Positions 47-4,951 of a stretch of 64,000 nucleotides of DNA are shown here, in pieces. Made by a program: the position numbers and the translations under genes. The stretch covers positions 1 to 64,000 of the forward strand of contig NZ_JALUFF010000027.1 in assembly GCF_027052235.1 (NCBI RefSeq), given 5' to 3'. Every line of letters begins with the position of its first letter. Position 1 is the stretch's first letter. The notes beneath the pieces were generated by a model. It had not been told where the DNA came from, did not search any database, and saw only the letters and a program-made list of their open reading frames with translations. Origin of the DNA: Thermococcus sp. Its GTDB lineage: Archaea; Methanobacteriota_B; Thermococci; Thermococcales; Thermococcaceae.

Positions 47-913
47 TCAGAACCTCAGCTCCACCCAGTTTTCCTTCTTCCCTTTAAGAATTCTCACGAG
101 ACCCATCTTCTCCAGCCTCTTGAACATCCTCCATGCGGTCGTCTTCGGAAGTCCTATGGCTTCCCTGACCTCCGCCTGGCTCGCCCTTCCACCCCTGTCG
201 AAGAGGTAGAGCAATGCCCTTTTCTCCTCCTCGCTGAGGTCGAGGTTGTTAAGTCTCTCCTCAAACTCCTCCCTCGTTGGCATTCTGCCGCCGAAGCCCC
301 CTGATTTCTTTTTCATTCCGAGATACGTCGCGCCCCCTGCAAGGGCGATACCCACAAGGACGAGGAGAATGGTAACTGACCTTCCAGCGGTATTTTCTGC
401 TGTTCCACCTGCTCCCGACGTTGTCACTCTCTCGCTCAGGGTGTAAGAGATGCTCTGGTTCCCCGGGGGCATCGTTATCCTGTTGCCCGCTATCTGGAGG
501 GGGATGTCGCTGAGGTCAACGACGACAGCGTTTTCAGGGAGGACGACCGTGAAGGGCTCTGGGGAGGACAGGTTGAGCGTCCACACGATTCCCTGCTTCG
601 AGGTCAGGTCGGGGGTGTAGTAGGTTATGTTTACGACGCTGGCGTTGTCAGTGAAGACCATGAGTTCGTTGCCGTTGAGCTGATAGTCCAGGGGATTTCC
701 GTTCTCGTCCTCAACCATTACGTCCTCAATGTGAGCACCGAGGAGCTGAACCTCCATCTGGGAGACGTATTCATCGGGGAGCAACTCGTAGTTGACCTTC
801 ACGTAGCCGTCTTCATAAACGGTCAGAACGAGGGAAGAGGTGGTATACTGGGCACTAACCAGCCCGTAAAAGATGAGGGATATGAGCAGGACGACGCTTA
901 TTTTCCCCTCCAC
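47..913 (-). CDS. Membrane-anchored winged-helix regulator, copy B
   Basis: Likely a one-component sensor that holds a DNA-binding domain at the membrane. From the GTG start at 913 (a GAGGGGGG ribosome site lies 8 bases upstream) it has 288 residues: a hydrophobic signal or anchor at about 4-20, an extracytoplasmic beta-rich domain of about 150 residues, a membrane segment near 178-200 (TILLVLVGIALAGGATYLG), a charged linker, and a C-terminal winged helix with a recognition helix around LPKTTAWRMFKRL. A TTG at 931 could extend it by six residues. It follows the coiled-coil protein gene by 27 bases, so the two are probably one operon. The gene at 2276-3238 is a clear paralogue in the same arrangement. 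The ligand and target genes are unknown. The topology (sensor outside, DNA-binding domain inside) is inferred from the segment order. Confidence 0.8.
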   Translation of the reverse strand: MEGKISVVLLISLIFYGLVSAQYTTSSLVLTVYEDGYVKVNYELLPDEYVSQMEVQLLGAHIEDVMVEDENGNPLDYQLNGNELMVFTDNASVVNITYYTPDLTSKQGIVWTLNLSSPEPFTVVLPENAVVVDLSDIPLQIAGNRITMPPGNQSISYTLSERVTTSGAGGTAENTAGRSVTILLVLVGIALAGGATYLGMKKKSGGFGGRMPTREEFEERLNNLDLSEEEKRALLYLFDRGGRASQAEVREAIGLPKTTAWRMFKRLEKMGLVRILKGKKENWVELRF

Positions 914-940
914 TCTATCAGCCCCCCTCAAAAAGAAAGG

Positions 941-2149
941 TCAGGAGTGGGTGAGGATGAAGCCCTCGACGCGGTTCAGCAGGTCAAGGGCAATCTCAAA
1001 GTGCGCCTTGGCCTTCGCTGGCTCCCCGTGCCTTGCGAGCTCTACTCCCAGCTTCAGCTCTTCCACCGCAACCTTCAGCTGGAGCTCCGCCCTCCTCGTG
1101 TCGACGCCCTTCTTTTCAAGCCCCTCAAGGGCTCTCCTGTCCTTCTGAATCCTGTCAGCTATCTCTCTGAGGAAAGCCTTCATGTTCCTGGCTCTCTTCT
1201 GGACTTCCCTCTCATGAACCTTCCTCATAACGAAGGTTATTGCCCCGTGGAACTTCGCTATGGTCTCCCCGTTCTCCTGAATAAGAGAGAGTGCCTCGTC
1301 GTACTTCCCTTCAGCCGAGAGGTTCTTGACCTGCTCGTAGAGGGCCTTGAAGGCGTCCAGTCTCTCCTTGAGTTCGGTAACGTTGTAGCCTTTATTCTCT
1401 CCAAACTCTATGGCCTTCTCTGCTATCTCGATTCCCCTCTCGCCCTTTCTGAGGAAGGCGCTGACTATCTTGTCGGCGTTCTTGTAGGCCAGCTCCCGGC
1501 GAACCATTCTGAACTCGTTGTTGAGGAGTATCATCTTCTCTCTGAGAACCTCAAGGTCTTCCCTAGCTCTGGTCAGGTTCTTCTCTCTGAGGTCGTTCAG
1601 AACTGTCTTGTAGGCCTCGACGGTCTCGTTGTAGGCCCTGCTCAGGTTGGTGATGTCAATTCCCTGTTCCTGCGCCAGAGTTATGACCTTTCTCACGAAG
1701 GCGAGGTACTCGTTCATCCTTTCAGCCTGTGCCCTAACGTGGGCTTTCGCCTCTTCAACTCTTTCCCTGCCCTCTCTGAGCCTTGAGAGAGCCCTCTTGT
1801 AGTAGTGCATCGCAGTCAGGGAGTCGAGGATTGAGTTGTGGTAGTCGCTCTCGTTGTACTCCTCAAGGGCCTTCCCTCTGTACTCCTCGGCCAGCTCGTA
1901 ATACTTGATTATGCTTGAGTTCTGAGGGAGCCTGTCCTTAATCGGTTCTATCTTCTTCTCGGCGAAGCTGGCCAACCTCTGGAGCTCCTTGATTAGCTGC
2001 GTTGCTATGACCCCTTCCCTGGTGGTGTTGTCAAGGAGCACAGAGGTGCTTCCGGTCGCGTTGCTCGCGGTTGTGTTGGTGGCGAGGCCCAGTGGTATAA
2101 CACTACCTACCAGCAAGAGGGTCACCGCCAGTGCCAGACCCCTCTTCAT
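941..2149 (-). CDS. Secreted alpha-helical (coiled-coil) protein, copy B
   Basis: Uncharacterised exported protein of 402 residues. The ATG at 2149 is preferred because GGTGATCGGC sits just before it; a GTG at 2158 is an alternative. Residues 1-24 form a signal peptide ending near GLATN. The rest is rich in Glu, Lys, Arg and Leu with heptad-like spacing and several Asn-x-Ser/Thr sequons, as expected of an extracellular helical-bundle glycoprotein. No enzyme motif is seen. The 316-residue protein at 3290-4240 is a diverged relative: both have the pattern of a short helix, an Asn-rich loop and an AMH-YK segment. Each sits directly upstream of a membrane-anchored winged-helix gene, so it may be the extracytoplasmic partner of that regulator (inference). 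Confidence 0.75.
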   Translation of the reverse strand: MKRGLALAVTLLLVGSVIPLGLATNTTASNATGSTSVLLDNTTREGVIATQLIKELQRLASFAEKKIEPIKDRLPQNSSIIKYYELAEEYRGKALEEYNESDYHNSILDSLTAMHYYKRALSRLREGRERVEEAKAHVRAQAERMNEYLAFVRKVITLAQEQGIDITNLSRAYNETVEAYKTVLNDLREKNLTRAREDLEVLREKMILLNNEFRMVRRELAYKNADKIVSAFLRKGERGIEIAEKAIEFGENKGYNVTELKERLDAFKALYEQVKNLSAEGKYDEALSLIQENGETIAKFHGAITFVMRKVHEREVQKRARNMKAFLREIADRIQKDRRALEGLEKKGVDTRRAELQLKVAVEELKLGVELARHGEPAKAKAHFEIALDLLNRVEGFILTHS

Positions 2150-2203
2150 GCCGATCACCGTTACCAGCTTGGCTCAACTCCTATTTGAGGACTCCAGTGG
2201 AAC

Positions 2204-2229
2204 AAACGTTTCAGATGATTCCATTCAAC
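2204..2229. promoter_or_regulatory. Shared upstream element, copy B operon
   Basis: This 26-base stretch matches the one at 4306-4331 at 21 positions, including AAACGTT at one end and TTCCATTC at the other. It lies upstream of the copy B operon, downstream of a possible TATA box (TTTAAA, near 2240 on the minus strand), so it would cover the transcription start. An overlapping inverted repeat, CCATTC-AACC-GAATGG, is at 2221-2236. Probably an operator. Confidence 0.5.
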
Positions 2230-2275
2230 CGAATGGAGGCTTTAAACAAAGATATCTAAAAAACAAGGGAAGATT

Positions 2276-3238
2276 TCAGAGCTTTAGCTCTACCCAGTTC
2301 TCCTTGCCTTTTTTGTATATCCTCACGAGTCCCCTCTCGGCTAGCCTGTTGAACATCCTCCATGCTGTGGTCTTGGGCAGTCCGAGGGCGGTTCTCACAT
2401 CTGCCTGCCTAGCCCTTCCTCCGTGCCTGTGGATATAGAGGAGGGCCTCCATTTCTTCCTCGCTCAGGTCGAGGGCCTTCAGCTTCTCAACGAGTTCATC
2501 CTCACCCTCAGTGTTCCCTTTTCCCGACCTATTCCACAGGAAGAAACCTGCCCCGGCGAGGAGCACCAGAACGACCGCCCCGAGCACCGGCCAGGGGGAG
2601 GAAGTGGGGGCGGGACTTGAGCTGCTGCTCCTGCTCTCGGATGAGGTCTGGGCTGTAGTTGAGGTTTTGGTGGTGCTCGATGATGTGGTTTTGGTGGTTG
2701 ATGTCTCCGTAATGGTTGATGTTGTGCTGGTTTCGGTTGTAGTTTCGGTTATCGGTAGAGGTAGAGTGTAAGATATGCTCTGGTTTCCGGGGGGCATCGT
2801 TATCGAGTTTCCTGAAATCTTCAGGGGGACGTCGCTCAGGTCAACTATGACGGTTCCGGAGGGGAACGTTACCGTCACCGGAATCGGTGAGCTGAAGGTC
2901 AAAGTCCACACGTCTCCCTGTTTGGAAGTCAGCTCGGTGGTAAAGTAGGTAATGTTGAGAAAGCTCACGTTGGCGGTCAGGTAAACTTCGACGGTACTCC
3001 CGTTCTGCTCGAAGGGAACTGGGTTCCCGTTCTCGTCAGCCACACTCAAGGCCTCTACGTCCTTAGTCAGGAGGGGAACTTCAATTACCACTGTAACGTT
3101 TGAGGGGACAAAAATCTCCGTGACTCTGACGTAACCGGTGTTGTAAACCTCTATGCTTATTGAGTTGAAACTTCCCTGTGCATTCGCAGGTGAGAGGATG
3201 ATAAAGGTCAGGAGCACTGTGAGGATGACTTTTCTCAT
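2276..3238 (-). CDS. Membrane-anchored winged-helix regulator, copy A
   Basis: Paralogue of the first gene, 320 residues, starting at an ATG with GGAGGTAG seven bases upstream. In order: a signal peptide (about 1-21, ending SPANAQ), a beta-rich extracytoplasmic domain closely related to copy B (both contain a SKQG-WTL block and a MPPGNQSISYTL block), a Ser/Thr-rich low-complexity spacer of about 50 residues that is likely an O-glycosylated stalk, one membrane helix (WPVLGAVVLVLLAGAGFFLW), an acidic linker, and a C-terminal winged helix whose LPKTTAWRMFNRL helix is nearly identical to copy B. The conserved reading head suggests both copies bind the same or overlapping DNA sites, while the long stalk exists only here. 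It lies 51 bases downstream of its helical partner gene and is probably co-transcribed with it. Confidence 0.8.
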   Translation of the reverse strand: MRKVILTVLLTFIILSPANAQGSFNSISIEVYNTGYVRVTEIFVPSNVTVVIEVPLLTKDVEALSVADENGNPVPFEQNGSTVEVYLTANVSFLNITYFTTELTSKQGDVWTLTFSSPIPVTVTFPSGTVIVDLSDVPLKISGNSITMPPGNQSISYTLPLPITETTTETSTTSTITETSTTKTTSSSTTKTSTTAQTSSESRSSSSSPAPTSSPWPVLGAVVLVLLAGAGFFLWNRSGKGNTEGEDELVEKLKALDLSEEEMEALLYIHRHGGRARQADVRTALGLPKTTAWRMFNRLAERGLVRIYKKGKENWVELKL

Positions 3239-3289
3239 TCCGCACTACCTCCCGAGTATTTTTGAAGGTTCTCAAAGGAAAACTGGAGT

Positions 3290-4240
3290 TCAATGGTTTC
3301 CCCCATGTCCTCTTTTTCTGCTCCCGTTCTGCCCTCGTTTATCGGGTTTTTCCGGGAACTTCCACTGTCCTTCGCCGGCTCTCTTCTCACGCCCAATTAG
3401 CCGTATTGTTCTCATGACCTCCATCCTGAGGCTCTTCAGTATTTCAAGGGCTTTCTGCGGGTTGTTCTCTTTGAGTGCCTCAAGGAGCAGGACCCTCTCG
3501 CTCTTCAGCTCGGCTATGTGTTCCCTCATTTCGGGGTCGCTGGTGTTGAGAGCGGAAAGCCTCGCTATGAGTTTGTCAAGGGCCCTCAGCTGGGCCTCCA
3601 CAAGCAGTGGGGTGTTTCTCTCGACGGCAAACTTCATTGAGACCCTCATCGCTTCCTCAAGGGATTTCCTGGCCTTGACCATCATCTGTAGGTCTGCCCC
3701 GAGCGCGGTGTAGTTCTTCTTTTCAACGTCTTCCTTCACCTTCAGGAATGCCCTCAGGGTCTCGTTGTAGTTCTCCCTAAGGAGGATGCAGTTTCCTCCT
3801 CCGTGGCAGAGCCTTTTCAGAGTTCTGTTGGCGTATTTTAGGGCGTGCTCTGTTATGTGGAGCTCAACGAGTGCTCTTGCCAGTATTTCATTTCCGGGGG
3901 TTTCTCCAACGCGGATCGAGACGAGTATCGCCTTGTAGAGGTGCATGGCCTCGATTGCTACTTTCATCGCCCCGGTGTAGTTCCCCTCGGAGTACAGCTT
4001 CTCCGCAAGTTTTTTCAGCTCGGAGGCGTTTTGATAGAGTTCGGTAACTTTCTCCTGGCTCTCGTTGTCTATCAGCGATGAGACGTAACCAGAGGTTATG
4101 TTGAGTATCCGGAGTAGCTCAAGCGAGGCTTTTGGAAGCCCTTCGGGTGCTTTTGCTCCATCTCCCTGGACAAGGGAGACCGGAAGCAGTGAGGTGATGA
4201 GTATACCAATCAGCAGGAGGGTTGAACATGTCTTTCTCAC
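3290..4240 (-). CDS. Secreted alpha-helical protein, copy A
   Basis: Exported protein of 316 residues, starting at a GTG (4238-4240) preceded by GGTGGGG. The N-terminus (MRKTCSTLLLIGILITSLLPVSLVQG) is a signal peptide. The remainder is helical and charged with several Asn-x-Ser/Thr sites, two cysteines (in LCHGGGNC) that could form a disulphide, and a very basic tail that may bind the cell surface or nucleic acid. It is related to the copy B protein at 941-2149 and has the same position, upstream of a membrane winged-helix gene. Function unknown; pairing with the regulator is inferred from the repeated gene order. Confidence 0.72.
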   Translation of the reverse strand: MRKTCSTLLLIGILITSLLPVSLVQGDGAKAPEGLPKASLELLRILNITSGYVSSLIDNESQEKVTELYQNASELKKLAEKLYSEGNYTGAMKVAIEAMHLYKAILVSIRVGETPGNEILARALVELHITEHALKYANRTLKRLCHGGGNCILLRENYNETLRAFLKVKEDVEKKNYTALGADLQMMVKARKSLEEAMRVSMKFAVERNTPLLVEAQLRALDKLIARLSALNTSDPEMREHIAELKSERVLLLEALKENNPQKALEILKSLRMEVMRTIRLIGREKRAGEGQWKFPEKPDKRGQNGSRKRGHGGNH

Positions 4241-4305
4241 GTGTCCCCACCGTTTTCACTACTGCGTTTGGGGTTATTAAGGATACGGTGAAACGTTGCC
4301 TGTAA

Positions 4306-4331
4306 AAACGTTCCAAATCGTTCCATTCGAC
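4306..4331. promoter_or_regulatory. Shared upstream element, copy A operon
   Basis: Counterpart of 2204-2229 with 21 of 26 positions the same. It lies about 65 bases upstream of the copy A operon start. A further AACGTT occurs at 4292-4297. Its repetition before the duplicated operon argues for a conserved operator, possibly for the encoded winged-helix proteins. Confidence 0.5.
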
Positions 4332-4429: not shown

Positions 4430-4951
4430 ATGAAAAAAGGACAGGGCACGCTTGAGTATCTTCTCATCATAGCTGTTTCTCTGGTCATAATACTCTTCAC
4501 CATCAGGGCTGTTATGAACGCCGTTGAGTCCGTGCCTGAGGTAGAGGTCTGGACAGCTGAGGGGGCGAAAGTTGTCATATTGAAGGTTCACTATGATGCT
4601 GGTGGACGTTTTATTCCCGACATATTTGATTTGAATGATGAATATGTCGTCCTGAAGAACATCGGTGATGAGCCTGCCAACCTGACGGGCTGGAAGCTTC
4701 TGGGTAACGGCAGGAGAAGCAGGAGACACCCCTTTATCTTTCCCCCCTTCGTTCTGCAGCCGGGGGCAACGGTCACAATTCACACGGGAAGGGGAACCAA
4801 TACGGAGACCGACCTATACTGGGGAATGAGAAGGCCTGTCTGGAGAAATAGGGGTGATACAGCTTATCTTTATGACTCCCATGGAAACCTCGTTGACATG
4901 TGTAGCTGGAGGGGAAGGGGGAGGGGCGAGGTAATCTGCCATACATCGTAA
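4430..4951 (+). CDS. Pilin-like protein with class III signal peptide and lamin-tail domain
   Basis: 173-residue exported protein. The ATG at 4430 is chosen because GGTGGT lies at 4419-4424 and a TATA box (TATATACT) at 4391-4398, which leaves no room for the longer frame. The N-terminus MKKGQGTLEYLLIIAV is a class III signal peptide (Q-x-x-x-E followed by a hydrophobic helix), the type cut by archaeal prepilin peptidases of the EppA/FlaK group. The C-terminal two thirds (VVLKNIGDEPANLTGWKL, then LQPGATVTIHTGRG and WRNRGDTAYLYDSHG) match a lamin-tail domain, an Ig-like fold seen in secreted microbial proteins. It may be a minor pilin or filament tip displaying a binding domain. It diverges from the copy A operon; a regulatory link is possible but unproven. 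Confidence 0.82.
   Translation: MKKGQGTLEYLLIIAVSLVIILFTIRAVMNAVESVPEVEVWTAEGAKVVILKVHYDAGGRFIPDIFDLNDEYVVLKNIGDEPANLTGWKLLGNGRRSRRHPFIFPPFVLQPGATVTIHTGRGTNTETDLYWGMRRPVWRNRGDTAYLYDSHGNLVDMCSWRGRGRGEVICHTS

Follow-up and report, generated by a model that had tools for sequence, protein, structure and literature searches.

Two tandem copies of a two-gene module lie at the beginning of a 64,000-nucleotide stretch of Thermococcus sp. DNA (assembly GCF_027052235.1, contig NZ_JALUFF010000027.1, positions 1 to 64,000; hereafter the window), and each of them is probably a self-regulated extracytoplasmic sensing cassette, archaeal and resembling the bacterial co-component systems, a reading to which we give a probability of about 0.6. 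In each module a secreted helical protein (Hel) is encoded upstream of a membrane-anchored winged-helix protein (Wh). Transcription runs from 4240 to 47 in the order helA, whA, helB, whB, and the two head-to-tail copies proposed earlier from the letters alone (the sequence-only reading) were found as four minus-strand genes occupying 47-4240 (Table 1). Comparison across genomes showed a conserved pairing of the genes, a recurrent pattern of topology, a conserved predicted operator nearly restricted to hel promoters, a spacing of that operator linked to the Wh clade, and deep conservation of the whole. As a conserved DNA switch precedes nearly every copy, it seems that the hel-wh pair senses something extracellular and controls its own production. 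Little is known of how archaea sense conditions outside the membrane, and a defined operator is available for few of their membrane-bound regulators. The analysis yields a cassette that is nearly family-wide in Thermococcaceae, predicts a binding site precisely, names a few candidate members of a regulon and makes a prediction on phasing; all of this could be tested in Thermococcus kodakarensis or Pyrococcus furiosus, provided that these species are confirmed to have copies.

Predicted operator and gene pairing

Setting all hel upstream regions side by side revealed the common arrangement GRAACG-N4-GRAACGTTYKTTYCACCG-N5-CCTMAAATA, directly upstream of the TATA-like box. The predicted operator consists of the core TGAAACG-TT-CGTTTCA and an upstream GRAACG repeat, and it was found at almost every hel promoter. 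A strict form of the pattern (GRAACGNNNNGRAACGTTY) gave 70 sites in 94 Thermococcaceae genomes against about 4 for the same pattern read backwards, and 64 of the 70 were located at most 300 bp upstream of hel; strict sites outside hel in G025 (inside a gene) and G040 (weak) were taken as chance. The A-type promoter (4274-4324) was the sole strict match in the window's genome. With a sequence-only model of 18 B-type Thermococcaceae promoters (R1), which included the window's helB promoter but not its helA promoter, the best match in the same genome was the helB promoter (47.0 bits, E 3.3e-12), followed by the helA promoter (24.2 bits, E 4.5e-5), the next match having an E of 0.29; the two tandem promoters are thus the only convincing R1 sites predicted there. 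At E <= 0.05, R1 had matches in 81 of the 94 genomes, and since about five chance matches are expected at this level over the 94, the weakest sites are not to be trusted. A search with a 19-mer allowing three mismatches genome-wide was uninformative (166 sites against 257 in the control).

The association extends to a second family of the class (f2, four genomes, outside the R1 training set), in which the best genome-wide R1 match was directly upstream of hel in all four. Two of these genomes were read, and both have hel followed by a wh with PKTTAWR and the core GAAACGTTCGTTYCA before CCCTTAAAAA, suggesting that the inverted repeat is the core of the operator and that the upstream half-site was added in Thermococcaceae. 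Measured from the first half-site, the TATA-like box was 32 bp away in 23 of 23 scored B-type promoters, whereas among the 20 other scored promoters it was 42-46 bp away in 16 and 34 bp in four. The 42-46 bp class coincides with the operons of the A clade of Wh, and two orphan hel genes also have a spacing of 44. By these distances the predicted shift between A and B is close to one turn of the DNA helix. Neither the cassette nor the motif was described in the open literature that we searched, which misses most subscription papers.

The pairing itself, which the sequence-only reading had proposed to check in other Thermococcales, was near-universal in the loci surveyed, and paralogues standing without their partner were a small minority. 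Among 41 loci, Wh follows 47 of 51 Hel genes and Hel precedes 47 of 51 Wh genes on the same strand; contig edges, one split frame, or overlaps and artefacts of the simple caller of open reading frames (ORFs) account for about half of the exceptions. Of the 94 Thermococcaceae genomes, wh was detected in 90 and hel in 84; the cassette is old and widely kept in the heat-loving genus Thermococcus and nearly family-wide in Thermococcaceae. The A4 profile detected wh in family f4 and none in f3. Two contigs of Bathyarchaeota metagenome-assembled genomes (L242 and L243) carry full-length relatives of Wh with 33% identity.

Pyrococcus-like and other genomes have a further operon, in which Hel is accompanied by a protein with an outer domain and a transmembrane (TM) segment but no winged helix-turn-helix (wHTH). 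By comparison of coordinates at least 12 of these operons keep Hel directly upstream, nearly all of them with the strict operator, and the pair of Hel and outer domain is therefore kept where the DNA-binding head is missing. Examples of such partners with the operator kept are L084:4460-5047, L086:3532-4125 and L097:6046-6612.

Table 1. Positions of the module genes and of their predicted operator/promoter regions in the window
Feature	Position	Strand	Description
whB	47-931	-	copy B of the membrane-anchored winged-helix protein: N-terminus signal-like, outer domain a beta-sandwich, single TM helix, wHTH at the C-terminus
helB	941-2158	-	secreted all-helical partner, copy B
B-type operator/promoter (predicted)	2180-2225	-	GGAATC 2222-2217, GAAACG 2212-2207, TGTTCC 2204-2199, TATA-like CCTCAAATA 2190-2182; operator-to-TATA 32 bp
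whA	2276-3238	-	membrane-anchored winged-helix protein, copy A; Ser/Thr-rich stalk preceding TM helix
helA	3290-4240	-	secreted helical partner, copy A; tail basic, Gly/His
A-type operator/promoter (predicted)	4274-4324	-	GGAACG 4324-4319, GGAACG 4314-4309, CGTTTC 4295-4290, TATA-like CCTTAATAA 4282-4274; operator-to-TATA 42 bp

Protein architecture and proposed mechanism

All four proteins have a signal-like N-terminus according to sequence analysis, and each Wh has one further hydrophobic segment (residues 180-207 in WhB and 213-237 in WhA). In both Wh proteins the wHTH was matched by the Pfam families TrmB, HTH_24, MarR_2 and DUF7343; TrmB was above its cutoff in both, and DUF7343 (PF24034, cutoff 27.6 bits) in WhA at 37.2 bits, with WhB just under at 26.1. 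The winged helix anchored in the membrane, as well as the Ser/Thr stalk of copy A (66% Ser/Thr over residues 159-216), thus agree with what had been read from the sequence. AlphaFold models, built as single chains with alignments made from the locus sequences, predicted for WhB (mean pLDDT 85) a beta-sandwich with strands at 29-165, followed by a helix (186-203) and the wHTH (220-292), and for HelB (mean pLDDT 84) a chain of long helices, with 13 helices in all and pLDDT mostly above 90 beyond residue 43. The true start of helB is likely the ATG at 2149, which stands behind the ribosome-binding site GGTGAT. In the fold search the outer domain of Wh showed a weak likeness to the beta domain at the N-terminus of M1 aminopeptidases (E 3e-5, TM-score about 0.3), and the sequence search against the Protein Data Bank (PDB) gave only weak wHTH or low-complexity matches. 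For Hel, no curated Pfam family was above its cutoff, the fold search against the PDB gave no confident match, and the CpxP-type LTXXQ family did not appear when P0002 and P0004 were compared with Pfam up to E = 1. A role in defence was considered and dropped, as the PADLOC matches of Wh are mere wHTH similarity to the Csa3/CasR regulators.

We propose that Wh would sit in the membrane with its beta-sandwich outside and its winged helix inside, and that, probably as a dimer, it would bind the inverted repeat GRAACG-TT-CGTTYC and the extra half-site 10 bp upstream. Bound Wh would most likely aid the recruitment of basal factors at a TATA-like box and so switch on its own hel-wh operon. The exported Hel would be the main output and, probably, also the partner read by the outer domain of Wh. 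In CpxP/CpxA-type circuits a chief regulated product is a helical extracytoplasmic protein that may act back on the membrane sensor; Hel-Wh resembles them in its helical extracytoplasmic output, although it has neither kinase nor response regulator. The effect of Hel could be a feedback of this type or a stabilisation of Wh as in ToxR/ToxS. As A and B share the same half-sites, the two copies may also regulate each other, but their promoters have two phased geometries that differ by one turn of the helix.

Alternatives to the proposed self-regulated sensing cassette

Several observations weigh against this reading. True orphans exist, namely three hel genes (L094, L100, L101) and one wh gene (L095); genome G009 has a good site at a gene for a Laminin_G_3 (LamG) protein, with no hel and with diverged Wh only; the closer tracking of the outer domain than of the wHTH by Hel divergence (partial r 0.75 versus 0.31) is a biased comparison, the wHTH being shorter and noisier; and the upstream position of the operator is compatible with activation but falls short of proof.

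The site in G009 would be explained if the operator were owned by another, soluble regulator, for which the hel-wh operons were merely the main targets while Wh controlled something else, and in some lineages sites indeed occur at LamG, rpoH-adjacent or ABC-exporter genes. We regard such a regulator as distinctly improbable, because the site is concentrated on hel-wh operons in two families, genomes without an A/B-type wh are mostly without the site, the spacing class tracks the Wh clade, and one of the diverged Wh proteins of G009 still retains TTAWRM. No convincing site was found in G073 and G076, which are without wh, or in G004, G006 and G008, which have a diverged wh only and no clear hel. 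This distribution of the site, the spacing that follows the clade, and the constant recognition helix (PKTTAWRMF in nearly all of the 46 Wh proteins compared) lead us to infer that Wh is the predicted binder.

Outside hel, sites with the full layout were found at genes for an N-terminally anchored LamG protein (six genomes or more and, decayed, a further one), for a protein of about 110 amino acids (twelve loci, in many of them upstream of rpoH), for an ABC-2 exporter in three cases, for PMT_2 membrane proteins and DUF257 proteins in two each, and for a secreted GH39 protein in one. By their annotation, many of these putative targets are envelope, glycan or export genes. The family of about 110 amino acids (L252:691-1113 and eleven other loci) carries the motif GYLFKNGxLVGIYV and has no Pfam match above cutoff. 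Intact-looking operator promoters also stand before decayed or missing reading frames (L251:3514-3555, L253:3216-3257, L261:3529-3560, and L268:3479-3518 with a LamG remnant), so the site can outlive its gene.

Autorepression is a common mode of autoregulation among small wHTH proteins, which counts in favour of Wh as an autorepressor, released when the outer domain or Hel senses a signal, and the element closest to the TATA-like box could block the access of transcription factor B (TFB). Such a mode is nonetheless unlikely here, since the operator lies entirely upstream of the TATA-like box, its distance from the box moves by about one helical turn, and no B recognition element (BRE; as defined in PMC10746257) is recognisable beside the box, as at activator-needing promoters such as those of EarA (PMC13286277). 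The EarA-dependent archaellum promoters can be freed of EarA by mutations in the BRE and provide a precedent for a weak BRE combined with an upstream wHTH activator (PMC13286277). Activation is preferred over repression on account of the operator position, the unrecognisable BRE and this precedent, and Wh most likely activates its own promoter.

It may also be that Hel is an envelope or structural protein merely co-expressed with an independent membrane regulator, the two forming no physical sensing complex, and the orphan hel genes that have the operator as well as the wide variation of Hel tails would agree with this. We find it rather doubtful, as the pairing is conserved in two families and is retained in operons that no longer have the wHTH, and the divergence of Hel follows the outer domain; we infer that Hel contacts the outer domain of Wh. 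The tails of HelA-type proteins are Gly/His-rich, acidic or Met-rich, and the Met-rich ones (46 Met in 561 amino acids in L089, 43 in 565 in L090) are suggestive of metal binding. Genes for a heavy-metal P-type ATPase and for an ArsR-type regulator adjoin the modules with Met-rich tails, in one case on a Thermococcus peptonophilus plasmid; Hel-Wh modules with such neighbours are in L333 (that plasmid, NZ_CP014751.1:30000-44000), L089 and L104. Met-rich tails next to such genes make metal a candidate input, and we consider metal ions or the state of the envelope as candidates for what is sensed. Separate inputs for A and B, as had been suggested, are plausible given the diverged outer domains, the different Hel tails and the stalk in A.

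Origin of the two copies and relation to known systems

The winged-helix heads had been described as almost identical; they are 65-66% identical over about 75 amino acids, and identity is complete only in the recognition helix. The outer domains (53%) and the Hel partners (24%) have diverged further, as stated earlier. The head-to-tail layout and the 65% identity of the heads could be taken for a recent tandem duplication with redundant copies, which we consider scarcely credible because A and B form separate groups in several genera: in a tree of 46 Wh proteins, rooted for drawing only, the A group was a clade with 100/100 support. In addition, A-B identity was equal within the same genome and between different genomes (outer domain 47.9 versus 47.7, wHTH 59.5 versus 59.5), which also rules out gene conversion between A and B, and the order of the modules varies, being A-B in the window and G028 but B-A at ten other loci examined. 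The separate groups and the equal identities indicate that the pair is an ancient duplication kept in tandem. The shared DNA output of the sequence-only reading gains support from operator half-sites and a recognition helix that are the same in both modules, but the output is not simply shared: A and B have separate promoters, whose classes differ in operator-to-TATA spacing.

Like Hel-Wh, the co-component systems ToxR/ToxS, VtrA/VtrC and TcpP/TcpH combine in one operon a transcription factor that spans the membrane once and an extracytoplasmic partner encoded next to it, with outer parts that evolve fast and a DNA-binding head that is kept (PMC9214523). In these bacterial systems a CadC-type HTH stands at the N-terminus, the C-terminal periplasmic domain is alpha-beta, and the partner is lipocalin-like and encoded downstream (PMC9214523); apart from the operon layout, these features were not found in Hel-Wh, which has a C-terminal head of TrmB/MarR type, an outer domain predicted all-beta, a Hel predicted all-helical and encoded upstream, a conserved self-operator and an archaeal host. 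The two outer domains of the co-component systems form an obligate heterodimer (PMC9214523); of a comparable contact Hel-Wh shows indirect signs only, in the pairing kept without the wHTH and in the divergence of Hel along with the outer domain. Of the duplicated one-component system proposed earlier, the duplication stands, but one-component is probably too simple, as the partner gene makes the module resemble ToxR/ToxS and VtrA/VtrC. We tentatively put forward, as possible rather than probable, an archaeal co-component family unrelated in fold to ToxR/ToxS and reversed in topology, in which the exported helical partner would be both chief output and sensed feedback, and paralogous cassettes would act on one operator through two phased geometries.

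Among archaeal regulators, ArnR and ArnR1 of Sulfolobus are likewise membrane-bound paralogues with an HTH that regulate surface genes; their known targets are archaellum and pilus promoters, and no Hel-like partner is described in the part of the source consulted (PMC6396743). The HTH of ArnR is N-terminal (PMC13286277) and a membrane segment follows it in ArnR/ArnR1, unlike the C-terminal wHTH of Wh. With a predicted DNA-binding domain and a predicted TM segment in one protein, Wh falls in the broad sense within the transmembrane transcription regulators, and the part of their census consulted does not describe a partner gene, operator or regulon such as those reported here (PMC10269533). 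In the TrmB sugar regulators the wHTH is followed by a soluble sugar-binding domain; Wh matches the wHTH part only, and the rest is membrane segment and outer domain.

A functional link to the neighbours (MetRS, TauE-like, glyoxylate reductase and M42 peptidase) was considered, and synteny looks the better account. Positions 2-46 of the window (plus strand) encode LMPDKEVKLGARIR and a stop, which matches the C-terminus of the methionyl-tRNA synthetase flanking the module in relatives. The divergent neighbour of helA (4430-4951, plus strand) has a class III (archaeal pilin-type) signal peptide and a lamin tail domain (LTD, E 1.9e-22).

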